From Lunatibacter salilacus (lineage in GTDB: Bacteria; Bacteroidota; Bacteroidia; Cytophagales; Cyclobacteriaceae), in the NCBI RefSeq assembly GCF_009797935.1, contig NZ_VOLC01000005.1, forward strand, positions 62,001-126,000: 64,000 nt of DNA, in the 5' to 3' direction. Below the pieces are notes generated by a model. It was not told the origin of the DNA and searched no databases. It worked only from the letters and a program-made list of their open reading frames with translations. This document shows positions 35,150 to 64,000 of the stretch, piece by piece. Each line of letters opens with the position of its first letter. Position 1 is the first letter of the stretch. The translations under genes were made by a program, and so were the position numbers.

Positions 35150-37781
<2,632 letters not shown>

Positions 37782-41108: not shown

Positions 41109-41855
41109 TTACTTTTCTATTTCTATAGACAAGAGTGACGCGGACGCCTCATCCAAAAAAATGGAGCAAGAAGGATGTGATTGAAGGATGCTGGATGGAT
41201 GGAGGTTCGTGACTTCACCTTCCAAACAATCTTTTATCGCCTGGGCTTTTCTTTTATCCGGTACAGAACAAATAATGTGTTTTGCCTTTAGTATCTGCTT
41301 AATGGACATGCTAATAGCCTGGGTTGGAACATCTACTAAGCTATCAAACCACCCTTCATTCAACTGCTGCATGCGACAGGGTTCGTCCAAGTCAACTATA
41401 AGGTAAGGCAATTCTGTATCAAAATCTGCCGGAGGGTCATTAAATGCCAAATGCCCGTTTTCTCCTATCCCCACAAGAGCAACGTCAATGGGATGACTGG
41501 AAATCAATTCCCCCAATTGCTTACAGACTTCTTCCGGGTTACTTTCCCCGTCGATAAAATAGATAGCACCAAGATTTTTTACCTTTTCAACAAATCTTTC
41601 TTTCAAGTATTTCCGAAAACTAGCCGGGTGGGTGTCGGAAACGCCGATGTATTCATCCAAATGAAACACTGTTACTTTTTCCCATGCCACATCCTCTTTC
41701 ACAAGCTGGTTGATAGTTTCAAATTGACTGGTACCAGTCGCCAAAATAATGTTAGCATATCCCTTGAGGCGAATAGCTTCTCTGATTTTATTTCCGGCTT
41801 CTTTTCCGGCTTGGTCCCCTAGTTCTTTTGGGTTCTTCGTTTGAATAATTTTCAT
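41109..41855 (-). CDS. nagB: Glucosamine-6-phosphate deaminase (NagB family)
   Basis: A 248-residue NagB-family protein expected to convert glucosamine-6-phosphate to fructose-6-phosphate and ammonia. The phosphate-binding loop ATGTSQFETI and the motif FHLDEYIGVSD (catalytic Asp/Glu) are present. The ring-opening site is GIGENGHLAFNDPP, where Escherichia coli NagB has NDGHIAFNEP, so Glu replaces the catalytic Asp position. The same variant is seen in the fused protein at 60643. This is the last gene of the minus-strand sugar locus, 77 bases after the M19-like gene. Confidence 0.87.
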   Translation of the reverse strand: MKIIQTKNPKELGDQAGKEAGNKIREAIRLKGYANIILATGTSQFETINQLVKEDVAWEKVTVFHLDEYIGVSDTHPASFRKYLKERFVEKVKNLGAIYFIDGESNPEEVCKQLGELISSHPIDVALVGIGENGHLAFNDPPADFDTELPYLIVDLDEPCRMQQLNEGWFDSLVDVPTQAISMSIKQILKAKHIICSVPDKRKAQAIKDCLEGEVTNLHPSSILQSHPSCSIFLDEASASLLSIEIEK

Positions 41856-46839: not shown

Positions 46840-48276
46840 TTATAACCTTACTTCTGTATTGCCTCCATGGGCTAAAGTGACATCCACCGGCTCGTTTTTC
46901 TCCCATGCTCCCCCTGTGAAATCGGGTACGTCGATTGAATTCGAACGGTTGGCAACCGACCACTCGCTAAGAGGGAAAATAGAACTCCAAAGGGCTGCAT
47001 CATAAACATCCTGGTCCAAAGGAAGACCGTTTCGCAGACAATCTATCAGTCGCCAGTCCATCAGAAAATCCATTCCTCCATGTCCTCCCACTTTTTTTGC
47101 CAGTTCCCCTATCCTGCGAACTATTTCGGGCTGGTATTTTTCTTCCAAATCCTTCATTTCCTCTTCTGAAAACCAAGCTTCATGCCCGGTAGAGACCCTT
47201 CCGGGTAGGGGATACTTCATGGCCGCTCCTTTCGTGCCGCTAAGCAGGTGAATCCGGGAATATACCCTGGGAGACGACACATCGTGTTGCAGCATGATGG
47301 TTCGCCCTTTACTAGTTTTTATGGTGGTTACATTCATGTTGCCCCTGTAGGGCAGGTTAACAAACTGTTCATAAAAACTATCCTCCCGTGCAAGCGATTT
47401 GACTCCGTCTCCAAGCATAAAATCATTGCTGGAAACAGACACTAGGAATTCCATTTTATCCCCTCTGTTGATATTCATGGCTTGGCAGATTGGGCCAAGT
47501 CCATGTGTGGGATAAAGATTGCCGTTTCTGCTGGCATTGTGTTTGAAACGCCACATGTTCCATTTTTCCTTATTGAAAATACCCGGAATAAAATCATGTA
47601 TATAGGCACCTTCCCCGTGGATGATCTCCCCAAAGAACCCTTGTCTGGCCATATTTAGTGTCATCAACTCAAAAAAATCATAACAAGTATTCTCCAGCAT
47701 CATACAATGCTGTCTTGTCCTTTCGGAAGTTTCTACCAAGTCCCAACATTCTTCTATGGTGATTGCCGCAGGAACTTCCACCGCGGCATGTTTACCATTT
47801 TCCATGGCATAAAGGGCCATTGGCGTATGAAGCTCCCATGGCGTAGCTATATATACCAAATCTATATCCTCTCTTTCGCATAGTTTCTTCCATTCCTCGG
47901 GATGTCCAGAATAAATCACCGGATCATGGGGGGTATCTTTAATTTTTTCCTTTGCTTTCAGTGCCATTTCCGGCCGTAAATCACATAAGGCCTTAATTTC
48001 CACACCTGCAATTTTACTCATTCGTACCACTGCGGCCGGTCCTCTGTTCCCCAATCCAATGAATCCTATCCTTACTTTTTCCAACTTAGGAGCCGCAAAA
48101 CCAGACATATTAAATTGCTGACGGTGTTTTTTCCCGGCAAATTTTTGGGTGGCATCCAATTGCTCTTTTGAAACTCTTTCTGAAGCTAGTGATGCCACGG
48201 GCAACAATCCAGATCCTGCCAAGCCAAATCCGGTCAAGCCTGATATTCGGAGAAATTTTCTACGGTTATTTTTCAT
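46840..48276 (-). CDS. Tat-signal GH109-like oxidoreductase/glycosidase
   Basis: A 478-residue Gfo/Idh/MocA protein of the GH109 type, a family in which NAD-dependent oxidation and elimination cleave alpha-N-acetylgalactosaminides. Tat signal NRRKFLRISGLTGFGLAG. NAD motif GFIGLGNRGP (71-80). Family marks follow: EVPAAITIEECWDLVETSER, LNMARQGFFGEIIHGEGAYI and THGLGPICQAM with the substrate-side His. Specificity is not assured by family membership. It is the first enzyme gene after SusC/SusD, across a hairpin-bearing 103-base gap, and a paralogue lies at 55018. Confidence 0.9.
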   Translation of the reverse strand: MKNNRRKFLRISGLTGFGLAGSGLLPVASLASERVSKEQLDATQKFAGKKHRQQFNMSGFAAPKLEKVRIGFIGLGNRGPAAVVRMSKIAGVEIKALCDLRPEMALKAKEKIKDTPHDPVIYSGHPEEWKKLCEREDIDLVYIATPWELHTPMALYAMENGKHAAVEVPAAITIEECWDLVETSERTRQHCMMLENTCYDFFELMTLNMARQGFFGEIIHGEGAYIHDFIPGIFNKEKWNMWRFKHNASRNGNLYPTHGLGPICQAMNINRGDKMEFLVSVSSNDFMLGDGVKSLAREDSFYEQFVNLPYRGNMNVTTIKTSKGRTIMLQHDVSSPRVYSRIHLLSGTKGAAMKYPLPGRVSTGHEAWFSEEEMKDLEEKYQPEIVRRIGELAKKVGGHGGMDFLMDWRLIDCLRNGLPLDQDVYDAALWSSIFPLSEWSVANRSNSIDVPDFTGGAWEKNEPVDVTLAHGGNTEVRL

Positions 48277-55017: not shown

Positions 55018-56436
55018 TTATATTAGATTGGTATTACCACCTTCTTGCAGGTTGATATCCATTCCCCTCTTGTTAGATTTCCAAGAACCCGAAGTAAAAT
55101 CCGGAACTTTTACCGTATTCCCCATCTGCGCAACCGACTGTTCACTTAAAGGTGTTACCACACTCCATAGTGCCGCATCATACACGTCCATTTCTAGGGG
55201 AAGTCCATTTCTAAGACAATCAATCAAGCGCCAATCACTAGCTGTGACTCTTTCATAGGACCGATTTCCCTTAGTACCTCCAGCCCGTGATACTTTTTCA
55301 CGAAATGTCTTGGTAATTTGGGGAGTGAACTTTTCGACAAGGGCTTTAAACTCTTCCTCTTGGGTCCATTCTTCACTTGTGGCAATTCTTGGAGGATCAG
55401 CATGATAAATCCCTCTAGATCCACTAATTAACTGGAATCTTGAACCAGGCCTGGGTGAACTGATATCGTGTTGCAGCATGATGGTTCTTCCTTTGTTTGT
55501 CCTAATCACAGTAGTGTTCATGTTCCCCCTGAACTTTAGCCCATCAAAGCTTTCAAAGTAAGGATCACTTTCGGCAAGCTCCTTCATTTTTGGACCCATT
55601 GTAAAATCATTGCTGGAAATAGAAACCAAATAATCCATTTTATCTCCATAATTAAGGTCCATCATTTGGGCCACTGGTCCCAAACCATGCTGCGGGTACA
55701 TGTTTCCATTTCGTCCTACATTTTCCTTCAAACGCCATGGCCGGTATCCAAACCAATTATCCTCATCCCTCTCCCACCTTCCCGGTCCATTTACCCTATC
55801 ATGAATGTAATTGCCTTCTCCGTGGATCAACTCCCCAAAAAAACCCTGCCTTACCATATTCAATACAATGGCGGACATTCCATCATGACACGAGCCACAT
55901 CCCATGTAACAATGTTTCTTGGTCCTTTCGGAAGTTTCCACCACCTGCCAACATTCCTCCAAGGTGACTCCGACAGGAAGTTCAGTATATACATGTTTGT
56001 CACGCTCCATGGCATATACAGCAATGGGAGCATGGTATTTCCAAGGGGTGGCCACGTAGATCAAATCAATATCAGAACGGTCACAAAGCTCTTTCCATGC
56101 GTCCTCACCATCAGTGTAAATGGCTGGTGAATGGCCAAATCCATCAATGGATTGCATGGCCTTATGAACATTACCGGGTACGATATCGCAAAGTGCCACG
56201 ATGTCCACATTCTCTATACTGGCCAGCCGAAGAAGTGTGCCTGATCCGCGTTCGCCAATGCCAACTAACCCCACTTTCACCCGATCCAGCTTGGGTGCAC
56301 GATAACCATGCATGTTAAATGATTGCAGGTGATTTCGCTCCGTGGATTTCTCGGCCATTGCCCGATCTGGACCCACAATTACCCCCGCTCCCGCAAGGCC
56401 TGCAAGTTTGATAAAATCTCTTCGGTTCTTTTTCAT
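55018..56436 (-). CDS. Second Tat-signal GH109-like protein
   Basis: A 472-residue paralogue of the GH109-like protein at 46840. Tat signal NRRDFIKLAGLAGAGVIVG. The NAD motif is GLVGIGERGSG near 57-67. The marks TELPVGVTLEECWQVVETSE, LNMVRQGFFGELIHGEGNYI and PQHGLGPVAQMMDL are all present. The usual EKP lysine motif is TELPV here, as in the GH109 subgroup. Its presence with a paralogue suggests two linkages or two steps of one glycan. It precedes the haem-motif lipoprotein by 10 bases, so they are probably co-translated. Confidence 0.9.
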   Translation of the reverse strand: MKKNRRDFIKLAGLAGAGVIVGPDRAMAEKSTERNHLQSFNMHGYRAPKLDRVKVGLVGIGERGSGTLLRLASIENVDIVALCDIVPGNVHKAMQSIDGFGHSPAIYTDGEDAWKELCDRSDIDLIYVATPWKYHAPIAVYAMERDKHVYTELPVGVTLEECWQVVETSERTKKHCYMGCGSCHDGMSAIVLNMVRQGFFGELIHGEGNYIHDRVNGPGRWERDEDNWFGYRPWRLKENVGRNGNMYPQHGLGPVAQMMDLNYGDKMDYLVSISSNDFTMGPKMKELAESDPYFESFDGLKFRGNMNTTVIRTNKGRTIMLQHDISSPRPGSRFQLISGSRGIYHADPPRIATSEEWTQEEEFKALVEKFTPQITKTFREKVSRAGGTKGNRSYERVTASDWRLIDCLRNGLPLEMDVYDAALWSVVTPLSEQSVAQMGNTVKVPDFTSGSWKSNKRGMDINLQEGGNTNLI

Positions 56437-57846: not shown

Positions 57847-59088
57847 TTAGAAAAACTCCGCAACGGCAAAATAAGCCGTCAATAAGCTGAACAGAATCAC
57901 AGCCCCAAGGCCAATATTTTCCTTCAATCCCGCCACGTGGGATTTCATCAGTATCTTGTTGTTGATCAATAGAAATACAGGGATGGCTACGGCAGGAAGA
58001 ATAAATGCCTGAAAGGCCTGCGAAAAAACCATTAACAACGGGGGACGGGTTTCCATAAACTGCATGCCAAAACCAAACATAATACCTATAAAACCCAATA
58101 TCCGGTACATGGGGGATCGGATATCTCTTGGTTGCCCAGTGTAATCACTAATCAGCCAGGGAGCTATTAGGATTATTGGGAAGACCGTAGATATACCCGC
58201 ACCGACAATTCCCAAAATCAGAATAAAGGCAGCAACTCTCCCACCTAATGGTTCAAACAAACTGATCATCTCAACAGTATTGTCCAACTTCATCCCCATC
58301 ACATGAAGCGTCCCGGCGGATACAGCCATAATAATGACGCTTAATACAAACATCAGCGAAGCAGAAACCATGGCATCCTTTTTTTCATTTTTAAGATCTT
58401 GAATCTTCCATCCTTTTTCTACCACCACCGTACTTCTGATGATAAATACAGCTGCAGAACACGTAGTACCAGCAATGGCAGCGATAAGCTGTAGTACGCC
58501 CGGCTCATTGGGTATGGAAGGAGCTAGTCCTCCCACGATAGTAGAAATACTTGGGTTGACCAGAAAAAAAACAACCACAAAGGAACCTACCATTAAGGCC
58601 ACAAAAAACACTAACACTTTTTCGAACACCTTATAACTACCAAACCAAAACAAGGTATAAAGCACCGTGACCAATACGGCTGTAATCCATAGGGTACTGA
58701 ACCCTTCCCCTCCCAGCAGGAGTCTAGACCCTTCCTGTATTAGATCGGCAATAATTCCAAATATGCCCATCAAAGCCATGATTTCGCCTATGATCAGAGC
58801 CACAATGATGTAAATTGCCAGTACAGCTCCGTTTTTTATTTTATGCTTGATATTGAATAAGGCCGTATTCCCGGTTACCAAGGTAGTTTTGCCATAGGCC
58901 ACCATCAGCACATAGGTAAAAATACAGGACAAGGCCAAGGCCCAAGTCAACGTCATACCATATTCGGCTCCTACTTTGGCCATGGTAGTGATGCTGCCTG
59001 TGCCGATATTATAGCCAATTAAAAAAAGGCCAGGACCAATTAAGCTTACGGCGAGTACAAACTTTTTTAAAATTGTATTTTCTTTCAT
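57847..59088 (-). CDS. Nramp-like transporter without the usual metal motifs
   Basis: A 413-residue, about 11-helix membrane protein of the Nramp superfamily. The first helix has GPGLFLIGYNIGTGSITT (18-35). Canonical Nramps have DPGN at the 29-32 position; here it is GTGS. In helix 6 the canonical MPHN is replaced by a TTCS segment near 208-211. Both core metal-binding motifs are therefore lost, so a divalent-metal role is doubtful. Nramp-related families with other ions are known (magnesium, aluminium). It is embedded in the sugar locus, so transport of another solute is conceivable. Confidence 0.85.
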   Translation of the reverse strand: MKENTILKKFVLAVSLIGPGLFLIGYNIGTGSITTMAKVGAEYGMTLTWALALSCIFTYVLMVAYGKTTLVTGNTALFNIKHKIKNGAVLAIYIIVALIIGEIMALMGIFGIIADLIQEGSRLLLGGEGFSTLWITAVLVTVLYTLFWFGSYKVFEKVLVFFVALMVGSFVVVFFLVNPSISTIVGGLAPSIPNEPGVLQLIAAIAGTTCSAAVFIIRSTVVVEKGWKIQDLKNEKKDAMVSASLMFVLSVIIMAVSAGTLHVMGMKLDNTVEMISLFEPLGGRVAAFILILGIVGAGISTVFPIILIAPWLISDYTGQPRDIRSPMYRILGFIGIMFGFGMQFMETRPPLLMVFSQAFQAFILPAVAIPVFLLINNKILMKSHVAGLKENIGLGAVILFSLLTAYFAVAEFF

Positions 59089-60642: not shown

Positions 60643-62526
60643 TCAATGTAGTGACGCATTCACTACTATATCCGCTGCATAGACGGTTTTATTGCTTTTT
60701 ATGACCTGCCGAATGGTTATACCGGTAGCGGATTTTTCGAAGATGACCCGGTCCTTTATGCGGAAATTATCTCCATAAATATACCTAGCTGGAATAACAG
60801 ATCCTTTTACCCATGCATCTGAAAGGGATAAAAGATTACTATCAAGGAGGTATTCAACGTTTTGAAGTAAATCCTTAGCCGCCCCTGCAAGCATTCCGTT
60901 GGAACCTTTCATGGACAGTTTTCCGTTCGCCTCCAGCACCACTTTCCCGCCAATATGCGCATCATATTCACCGGGAGGCATGCCAGCAAATGCTGTCGCA
61001 TCACTCACCAAGAAACTCTTGTCGCCCTTTATTTTGAAAGCGACCTTTAGAAACTCATCGGGTACGTGACATCCGTCGGCGATTAGGCTTGCGGACAGGT
61101 TCTCTTCCGCCAGCAGGTCCCAAAGAATGTTCGGATGTCTTTTAAGCATAAGTGGAACAGCATTACCCAAGTGGGTTACCATAGATAAACCAGCTTCTAC
61201 TGATGCCTTGATATCCTCCAGCTTGGCCATACTGTGTCCAATGGCTACTTTTATACCTTTATCAACACAGGCTGCAATAAATTCCAGTGAATTTTCCCGC
61301 TCGGGTGCCAATGTTATCAGTGCAATTCGATTATCGGAAATGGCAATAGCTTCTTCCAAAAATCCGAGTGAGGGATTTTGGATACAGTCCTTGGGATGCG
61401 CCCCTCTTGCCCCGTCCTCGGGAGATATAAATGGGCCTTCTAAATGGACCCCCAATACACAGTCATTTACCAGCGGATACACTTCGCAGGCATCCCGAAT
61501 TACCCCCAATAAATGAAACATTGTGTCCTTAGTGCCTGTAATCAAAGTAGGGCAAAAAAGAGTGACTCCCTTACTTAACAAATATTGGGTTGCCGCCAAG
61601 ACATCTTCTTTGGTAAGCTCCATTGAATTAAAGTCTATCCCGTTGATCCCGTTGATTTGAAGATCTACTAAGCCAGGTGCTAGATAGGTTTTAGTGGGGA
61701 AATCAGCTGGAAGGATAAAATCAACCCCGTATATTTCATCCACACAAATAACCTCATTTATAACAATATCCTTTGATGCACGATCTTTTAAAACCTGGAT
61801 TTCGGGTGAGGACTCATGGTCCACAAATAAATCACAATTATTTAATGTCCTTAAAAAAGAAGCAGGGCAGGCGGTGGAAATCGGGCCAAACAGCGTGTCG
61901 TGAACGGCAGCTTTTTTTGTCTGACCGGGGACCACACAAATTAAATGGGATGCATTTATAATCGTGGGAATGGTCAGGGTTATGGCCTGTTTGGGCACTT
62001 CTTCAAAATTTTCAAAACACCCGTCATTTACCTGCTGCTGTCTGCATATCAGGTCCAGTTCCACTTTTTTGACAGCAGAGATATCAAGGAAATCGGCAAC
62101 AGGTGGGTCATTAAAAGCAATGTGTCCATTTTCACCTATTCCCAGACAAACTAAATCGATAGGGTTTTCTTGTAACAACGCCGAATACCTTGCTATCTCG
62201 GCATCTATTTCCGCCAGTCCATTAATATAGTGAACCGCTTTAAAGGAAACGTGATCAAACAGGTGATGTCTAAGGAAATTGGAAAAAAGAGCTGGGGACG
62301 AATCGGAAAGGCCAATATATTCATCCATATGGAAAGCGGTAATTCGCCTCCAAGGGATTTGGTTACTTTTTCGCAGGTAGGCTAGTGTATCCGATTGGGA
62401 AGGGGCGGCTGCAAAAATAACCCGAAGCCCCTCCTTGGTACGTAATAGCTCTAGCAGTTTTGCTTCTACAGCCCTTCCGGCTGCTGTTCCCATCTCGGAT
62501 CGGTTTTCGTAACGGTGTAATTTCAT
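60643..62526 (-). CDS. NagB-NagA fusion: deaminase plus deacetylase
   Basis: A 627-residue protein fusing two steps of GlcNAc-6-phosphate use. Residues 1-245 are NagB-like: FHMDEYIGLSD (Asp68, Glu69) and GIGENGHIAFNDPP (131-142), with the same Glu-for-Asp variant as the free NagB. Residues 255-627 are NagA-like: GLVDLQINGINGIDF, the metal Glu363 in HLEGPF, His431 in IGHSMAK, His452 in THLGNA, and the catalytic Asp509 in VSDATAFAG. The order deaminase-first is opposite to the order of reactions (deacetylation precedes deamination), but both active sites look complete. There is no membrane segment, so it is cytoplasmic. Confidence 0.9.
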   Translation of the reverse strand: MKLHRYENRSEMGTAAGRAVEAKLLELLRTKEGLRVIFAAAPSQSDTLAYLRKSNQIPWRRITAFHMDEYIGLSDSSPALFSNFLRHHLFDHVSFKAVHYINGLAEIDAEIARYSALLQENPIDLVCLGIGENGHIAFNDPPVADFLDISAVKKVELDLICRQQQVNDGCFENFEEVPKQAITLTIPTIINASHLICVVPGQTKKAAVHDTLFGPISTACPASFLRTLNNCDLFVDHESSPEIQVLKDRASKDIVINEVICVDEIYGVDFILPADFPTKTYLAPGLVDLQINGINGIDFNSMELTKEDVLAATQYLLSKGVTLFCPTLITGTKDTMFHLLGVIRDACEVYPLVNDCVLGVHLEGPFISPEDGARGAHPKDCIQNPSLGFLEEAIAISDNRIALITLAPERENSLEFIAACVDKGIKVAIGHSMAKLEDIKASVEAGLSMVTHLGNAVPLMLKRHPNILWDLLAEENLSASLIADGCHVPDEFLKVAFKIKGDKSFLVSDATAFAGMPPGEYDAHIGGKVVLEANGKLSMKGSNGMLAGAAKDLLQNVEYLLDSNLLSLSDAWVKGSVIPARYIYGDNFRIKDRVIFEKSATGITIRQVIKSNKTVYAADIVVNASLH

Positions 62527-62909: not shown

Positions 62910-64000
62910 TTAGACTTTTGGTTCCCAGCCTTTCTGATAAGCTCTTTTCCAAAGTCGTTGAGCTGGTTTGTTATTTAGAATATGACCGTTTTGGGGGTCG
63001 ACATGCAGGGTCTCTCCTGTTCGCTGGGCGATATTTCCCAGCTGACAAAGCAAGGTACTCATATGTCCGCTGACAATATCGGAATTTAAGGGAGTACCCT
63101 GCCGGATACTTGAAAAAAGGTTTTGAATATGCAAACTGTCTAGATTTTGGGCAGGATTAGCCAAATCTCTGGCATCTATTACAGTATCATTCTTCACCTC
63201 TTTTACTAGGTTGTTTTTAAGGTCATAAATGGAATAGGCATTCCCTCCGTCAATTTTGAGTGCTCCAGTCTCTCCATAGAACATCACGCCGACGCTGGCC
63301 CCTTCAATAAGGTGTCCATTACAGCTTCTGCCTTCCCAGGTGATCTTGGAGTTATTATCAAATTCCAAACTGATTGTTTGGGTATCCGGAGTCTCCCAAT
63401 CATCATCATAACGGTACCTTCCCCCTGCAGAAGTCACTCTAGTGGGGTATTCTACTCCAAGCCCCCACCTAGCTATGTCCACCATATGGGTTCCGTTGTT
63501 CAATGCCTCACCAGTACCCCAGTTCCAGAACCAGTGCCAGTTATAATGTACTAAATTATCCCGGAACTCTTCCCGTGGAGCAGGTCCCTGCCACAATTCA
63601 AAATCCAACCAATCCGGAACGGCCGTTTTTTTCCCGACACCTATTGGTCCTCGGTTATTGGTATACCATGTCTTTGCGTAATAAGGCCGGCCAATTGCCC
63701 CACTTTTCAACTCGGCAATTCCAGCTATCACATTTGGCCATGACCTTCTTTGATTTCCCATCTGAAGAACCCGTCTATATTTAGAAGCCGCTTCTATCAG
63801 GAGTTCTCCTTCATTCGGATTATGACTCGCAGGTTTTTCGAGATAAACATCCTTTCCCGCCTGACAAGCCATGATGGCTGCCGGCGCATGCCAATGATCT
63901 GGAGCTGCTACCACCAAAACATCTACGTCCTTATCCTCTAGACTCTTTCTAAAATCAGGAACAGCTTTGGGTGAAAAATCCTGAATTTTACCTACGGATC
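62910..64000 (-). CDS. Gfo/Idh/MocA oxidoreductase, N-terminus outside window
   Basis: A partial NAD(P)-dependent oxidoreductase of at least 360 residues. The frame is open to the last base, so the Rossmann motif and any Tat signal are not visible. Visible marks: DVLVVAAPDHWHAPAAIMAC, the EKP motif in VYLEKPASHNPNEGELL, and the substrate-side HYNWHWFWNWGTGEALNNGT followed by HMVDIARWGL, with the family His. It resembles the secreted Gfo/Idh proteins of the Bacteroidota that act on sugars. A TTG in VLVVAAP is not a real start. A terminator follows. Confidence 0.88.
   Translation of the reverse strand, partial: SVGKIQDFSPKAVPDFRKSLEDKDVDVLVVAAPDHWHAPAAIMACQAGKDVYLEKPASHNPNEGELLIEAASKYRRVLQMGNQRRSWPNVIAGIAELKSGAIGRPYYAKTWYTNNRGPIGVGKKTAVPDWLDFELWQGPAPREEFRDNLVHYNWHWFWNWGTGEALNNGTHMVDIARWGLGVEYPTRVTSAGGRYRYDDDWETPDTQTISLEFDNNSKITWEGRSCNGHLIEGASVGVMFYGETGALKIDGGNAYSIYDLKNNLVKEVKNDTVIDARDLANPAQNLDSLHIQNLFSSIRQGTPLNSDIVSGHMSTLLCQLGNIAQRTGETLHVDPQNGHILNNKPAQRLWKRAYQKGWEPKV

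Follow-up and report, generated by a model that had tools for sequence, protein, structure and literature searches.

The 64,000-nt stretch of Lunatibacter salilacus DNA analysed here (contig NZ_VOLC01000005.1, positions 62,001 to 126,000; hereafter the window) carries, on its minus strand, a gene whose product joins a NagB-like domain to a NagA-like domain. Amino-sugar deaminases and deacetylases usually are separate proteins. The features that bear on this gene are the following, with the evidence for each in brackets.

60643..62526 (-), NagB-NagA fusion gene, 627 aa (ORF, domain searches, orthologues, AlphaFold2 model)
61792..62526 (-), NagB-fold domain, residues 1-245, AAPSQ/GENGH subfamily (profile searches, alignment, Foldseek)
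62395..62409 (-), AAPSQ, residues 40-44, where canonical NagB has the TGG(T/S)P phosphate loop (alignment)
62122..62136 (-), GENGH, residues 131-135; His135 corresponds to E. coli His143, and Glu132 lies at the S. mutans Arg127 position (alignment)
61690..61791 (-), junction, residues 246-279, variable, including the start of the NagA small beta domain (orthologues, model, dN/dS)
60661..61689 (-), NagA-fold domain, residues about 280-622 (profile search, residue alignment, Foldseek)
62910..63998 (-), Gfo/Idh/MocA oxidoreductase just upstream of the fusion; continues outside the window, its full length in the genome being 450 aa (gene context)
46840..48276 (-), GH109-type protein (N-acetylgalactosaminidase family) with a GGHGG loop (same gene cluster)
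55018..56436 (-), second GH109-type protein, without the GGHGG loop (same gene cluster)
41109..41855 (-), free NagB-like paralog with a TGTSQ loop and GENGH, about 20 kb downstream of the fusion, in the same direction

The fusion ORF begins with ATG and runs for 627 codons with no internal stop, and no signal peptide is evident in its product. A sequence-only reading of the locus had described one frame with a NagB-like and then a NagA-like domain, and the uninterrupted ORF and the domain searches agree with it: PF01182 matched residues 8-226 (1.3e-17) and TIGR00221 (NagA) matched residues 251-583 (1.6e-58). That reading had proposed a search against PF01182 and PF01979; the former was found as anticipated, whereas PF01979 gave no match in the protein at 1e-3 and TIGR00221 matched instead. 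Curated equivalog cut-offs were not reached by the NagB half against TIGR00502 (121.7 vs. 236.9 bits, about 115 bits short) or by the NagA half against TIGR00221 (198.5 vs. 225.65 bits), and the score of the fusion against the AgaI model PRK09762 (galactosamine-6-P isomerase) was 83.5 bits, below the curated cut-off of 271. An AlphaFold2 model of the whole protein, built from 105 sequences, had a mean pLDDT of 94.9 and a pTM of 0.91. By Foldseek, its NagB half matched the NagB structures 2bkv and 2ri0 (TM 0.87-0.90), and its NagA half matched the NagA structures 3egj and 9up6 (TM about 0.8 by target length).

The fusion is genuine. It was found as one frame in 17 of 391 genomes of the same family, distributed over six genera, and again in Cyclobacteriaceae bacterium YHN15 (L069), for a total of 18 genomes of at least six genera in one family; at the threshold used, 395 genomes sampled across the phylum yielded no additional fusion. 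In one of the 17 (G188, L140), a TGA that follows codon 550 removes the C-terminal end of the NagA half. In sister genera of the family, Imperialibacter included, the NagB-like and NagA-like genes are separate and adjacent, with small overlaps or small gaps between them, and several pairs overlap by 4 bases; since the same two genes lie side by side in relatives in this way, the fusion derives from a coupled gene pair. Genes overlapping by 4 bases could be joined by a single frameshift, but an assembly artefact or frameshift that merges two genes, including the missed stop or frameshift near residue 250 that the sequence-only reading had raised, is ruled out for practical purposes by one-frame fusions in 18 separately assembled genomes, all within one clade. 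The adjacent pair also occurs in Paenibacillus, Pantoea, Enterobacter, Erwinia, Vibrio, Clostridia, an Opitutales MAG and Agrobacterium. The fusion arose once; a concatenated tree computed from 46 fusions and pairs places the fusions in a single clade with support of 98/95 that is present in 100% of 200 bootstrap trees, and single-domain trees also group them, with weaker support (92 for the B half, 69 for the A half). Both halves are under purifying selection. Over seven pairs, in the most distant of which dS is saturated, dN/dS ranged from 0.06 to 0.11 in the B half and from 0.05 to 0.22 in the A half, with the B half tighter in five of the seven and the junction looser. The reactions and folds are known; a NagB-NagA combination was not found in the literature searched, which is no proof of absence.

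Every residue tested in the NagA half is kept in alignment to E. coli NagA, which bears out the earlier description of a NagA-like domain with all expected metal and catalytic residues. Retained are Q59, N61, E131, H143, H195, H216, N219, R227, H251 and D273 (E. coli numbering), comprising the metal and catalytic set (E131, H195, H216, D273) and the phosphate and substrate set (N219, R227, H251, H143). In E. coli NagA, R227 and H251 contact the substrate phosphate. The fold, metal site, catalytic Asp273, R227, H251 and QxNG motif are common to the fusion half and known NagA (TIGR00221; 3egj, 1yrr, 2vhl), whereas the fusion half is 24-30% identical, scores below the curated cut-off, sits behind a NagB-like domain and has LGNA(V)..RHPN where known NagA has LYNAM..REPG. 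The residue pattern gives good support to the prediction that this half deacetylates N-acetylhexosamine-6-phosphate. As the fusion is the sole NagA-like sequence in the L. salilacus genome and in all 17 fusion genomes searched, its deacetylase half must serve any pathway that requires NagA.

The NagB half departs further from its characterized relatives. It shares with NagB (TIGR00502; 1dea, 2bkv, 2ri0) the fold and Asp72, Glu73, His143 and Lys208 (E. coli numbering), and Asp72, His143 and Lys208 are present in every aligned subfamily member. The complete catalytic set attributed to the domain from the sequence holds for these residues; it does not extend to the phosphate loop, the lid Arg or Glu148, and with the profile score also well short of the cut-off given above, a plain NagB reading of this half is not supported. 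The loop TGGTP (41-45) is replaced by AAPSQ, N140 by Glu, D141 by Asn and E148 by Asp, the last in every aligned subfamily member, and lid Arg172 of E. coli NagB has no counterpart. Simulations of S. mutans NagB have Lys194, Thr38, Ser37 and, via water, Arg127 holding the phosphate, and place Arg159 in the lid (PMC8369159). These residues appear to correspond to the kept Lys, the Ser, the Pro, the GENGH Glu and the lost lid Arg in the fusion, and on alignment Pro and Ala occupy loop positions whose S. mutans equivalents contact phosphate. The N of GENGH was considered as the unusual feature and rejected, since it is common among such proteins, occurring also in AgaI, in S. mutans and B. subtilis NagB and in the canonical NagB of L. 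salilacus. The odd features are rather the Glu that precedes this N, the following FND and the AAPSQ loop. A PSQ loop is present in 82 of 98 B-type relatives; TSQ or ASQ takes its place in most of the rest, a state also seen in the 41109 and C65 paralogs. Judged from these alignments, GENGH marks a larger subfamily in which the fusion belongs to the PSQ branch, and the altered pocket is common to the whole of this widespread NagB-like subfamily, for no member of which did our literature search find an activity. Because the distal pocket is rebuilt (AAPSQ, Glu for Arg, no lid Arg), the substrate of the NagB half is probably not plain GlcN-6-P.

The company that the fusion keeps in its genomes points the same way. 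The free NagB-like protein at 41109 does share GENGH with the fusion, as first noticed from the sequence, but it falls on a different branch of the B tree (TGTSQ, 38% identical), which makes it a paralog and no copy of the fusion's deaminase half. The earlier count of two deaminase domains and one deacetylase is right for the locus, whereas the genome as a whole has five NagB-like proteins and still one NagA. The five are a canonical NagB (contig C14), a NagB-PIG-L type (C33, L185), the fusion, and the TGTSQ paralogs 41109 and C65. Canonical NagB was recognized by motif in 12 of the 17 fusion genomes, in one of them split (G309), and the remaining five have a 235-aa NagB-like gene. Since at least 12 of the 17 genomes keep canonical NagB as well as the fusion, standard GlcN-6-P in those genomes does not depend on the deaminase half, which probably has a task other than the standard deamination of GlcN-6-P. 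The nearest precedent for the architecture is NagB-PIG-L (PRK02122; NF002557), which also joins a NagB-like domain to a de-N-acetylase-type domain; its deacetylase fold is unrelated to NagA, however, and its NagB motifs are canonical-like; the two are not homologous as fusions. The C-terminal half of the present fusion is NagA, not the PIG-L/LmbE domain of that family. L. salilacus thus has two unrelated NagB-deacetylase fusions, the second of which (1315-3642 of L185, on contig C33 of genome G000) has 775 aa, is flanked by two ROK-family genes and, by inspection of the sequence, appears to be of PIG-L type in its C-terminal part.

An ortholog of the upstream Gfo/Idh/MocA gene sits in the fusion operon of other genera, where the order is Gfo/Idh, SSS importer, fusion, and a second Gfo/Idh is usually nearby. 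In L. salilacus, the fusion and one Gfo/Idh lie inside a long cluster of genes that share one direction, together with two SusC/SusD pairs, the two GH109-type genes, esterases, an Nramp-family transporter and an M19 dipeptidase, and a Gfo/Idh pair with the SSS ortholog, without the fusion, is located on contig C21. A same-genus MAG (L042) has the new downstream neighbours in common with L. salilacus. The second GH109-type protein reads AGGTKGN where the first has GGHGG, the family's named catalytic acid/base site. The Nramp-family transporter (57847-59088) of this glycan-use cluster has a weaker relative (28%) in a related cluster (L130), and the window also encodes a catalase-peroxidase-like protein (35505-37781) whose N-terminus resembles a signal peptide. 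The same two subfamilies occur as separate genes in Paenibacillus, Pantoea, Agrobacterium and others, usually in the same order and with similar neighbours, and in some cases an SIS gene lies between them. Around unfused pairs are found Gfo/Idh pairs, ABC or SSS importers, a xylose-isomerase-like TIM barrel, and SIS, ceramidase-like and AGE genes.

Taken together, we favour with moderate confidence a bifunctional enzyme, an N-acetylhexosamine-6-phosphate deacetylase and amino-sugar deaminase of shifted specificity, that would act in a Gfo/Idh-importer module. The protein would be a cytoplasmic enzyme of amino-sugar catabolism, produced by one fusion of adjacent coupled genes in an ancestor of several Cyclobacteriaceae-type genera. 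Its C-terminal NagA half would strip the acetyl group from an N-acetylhexosamine-6-phosphate, and its N-terminal NagB-like half may then deaminate or isomerise the freed amino sugar via Asp72 and His143. Being fused, the two activities would be present in equal amounts and next to each other, possibly with a benefit from proximity. Since the NagA half keeps its phosphate contacts and the NagB half has lost most of its own, it is not certain that both halves work on one and the same line of substrates.

A simpler scheme is the ordinary GlcNAc pathway in one chain, in which NagA yields GlcN-6-P, the NagB half converts it to fructose-6-P, and the loop change is neutral. Retention of catalytic Asp72 and His143 and of phosphate-binding Lys208, the close fold match to NagB and the status of the fusion as the genome's sole NagA are consistent with it, yet it must accommodate the apparent Pro and Ala at phosphate-contact positions, Glu for Arg127 and the missing lid Arg159, a loop so prevalent among relatives that drift is not the explanation, and the canonical NagB also kept in most fusion genomes. 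We consider it possible, though on balance unlikely. Rather doubtful, too, is the idea that the AAPSQ/GENGH subfamily works without a 6-phosphate, on an amino sugar that is either free or differently substituted at C6, in a kinase-less route of which the fusion would supply two core steps and whose other members would be the Gfo/Idh pair and an SSS or ABC importer beside the NagA-like and NagB-like proteins. In its favour, when 57 loci were scanned roughly by motif, no more than 3 had a kinase-sized ROK or PfkB-like gene within 6 kb, and two of these hits could be fortuitous; against it stand the NagA phosphate contacts, NagB Lys208 and the ROK kinases present elsewhere in the L. salilacus genome.

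GalNAc is a candidate substrate in L. salilacus from its GH109 genes, as both alpha- and beta-GalNAc are substrates of GH109 enzymes (PMC12269599) and NagA-type enzymes accept GalNAc-6-P (PMC3668189; PMC12680351). A route from GalNAc-6-P through GalN-6-P to tagatose-6-P is nevertheless improbable for the fusion: GH109 genes were not seen beside it in other genera, E. coli NagB and AgaI both fail to do the second step (PMC3668189), and GatZ/KbaZ were not found in the genome, a weak sign since other aldolases exist. The evidence for a tagatose route is weak either way. A NagB half that is catalytically dead or regulatory, leaving a deacetylase only, might explain the altered phosphate loop, D141N and E148D, but is very unlikely given the invariance of Asp72, His143 and Lys208, the low dN/dS of the B half and the D141N state of B. 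subtilis and S. mutans type NagB. A sialic-acid route was also considered from the SSS, Gfo/Idh, AGE and DHDPS-like neighbours. A literature search for a Gfo/Idh 3-keto pathway returned only work on 2,7-anhydro-sialate. A link to the NagS-type SIS dehydratase was dropped, as NagS is limited to Streptomycetaceae (PMC12680351).

Beyond this family, the fusion links two enzyme subfamilies as functional partners, which backs the same inference for the many genomes in which the genes are mere neighbours, and it offers a handy single protein for testing the substrate of AAPSQ-type proteins. Unfused pairs are annotated as "glucosamine-6-phosphate deaminase/6-phosphogluconolactonase" and "amidohydrolase". 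Proteins that now bear the first of these names are found in several phyla without the standard phosphate loop, which makes their assigned substrate doubtful. If the subfamily does work without a 6-phosphate, a widespread kinase-less route would be annotated as GlcN-6-P deaminase or 6-phosphogluconolactonase. On two alphaproteobacterial plasmids (L212, L213), the unfused homologues are annotated as 6-phosphogluconolactonase, a name that is probably wrong, and amidohydrolase; one plasmid has an SIS gene between them, and on another uxuA and a mannitol dehydrogenase family gene follow. In Paenibacillus silvestris (L092, 8032-9681), a xylose-isomerase-like TIM barrel is fused to an AAPSQ-type NagB domain in a protein of 549 aa. 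Finally, four Bacteroidales loci (L087, L090, L093, L101) have a lone AAPSQ-type NagB beside SusC/D, fasciclin protein, heparinase II/III-like and GH20-like genes, a context hinting at a glycan of uronate plus hexosamine.
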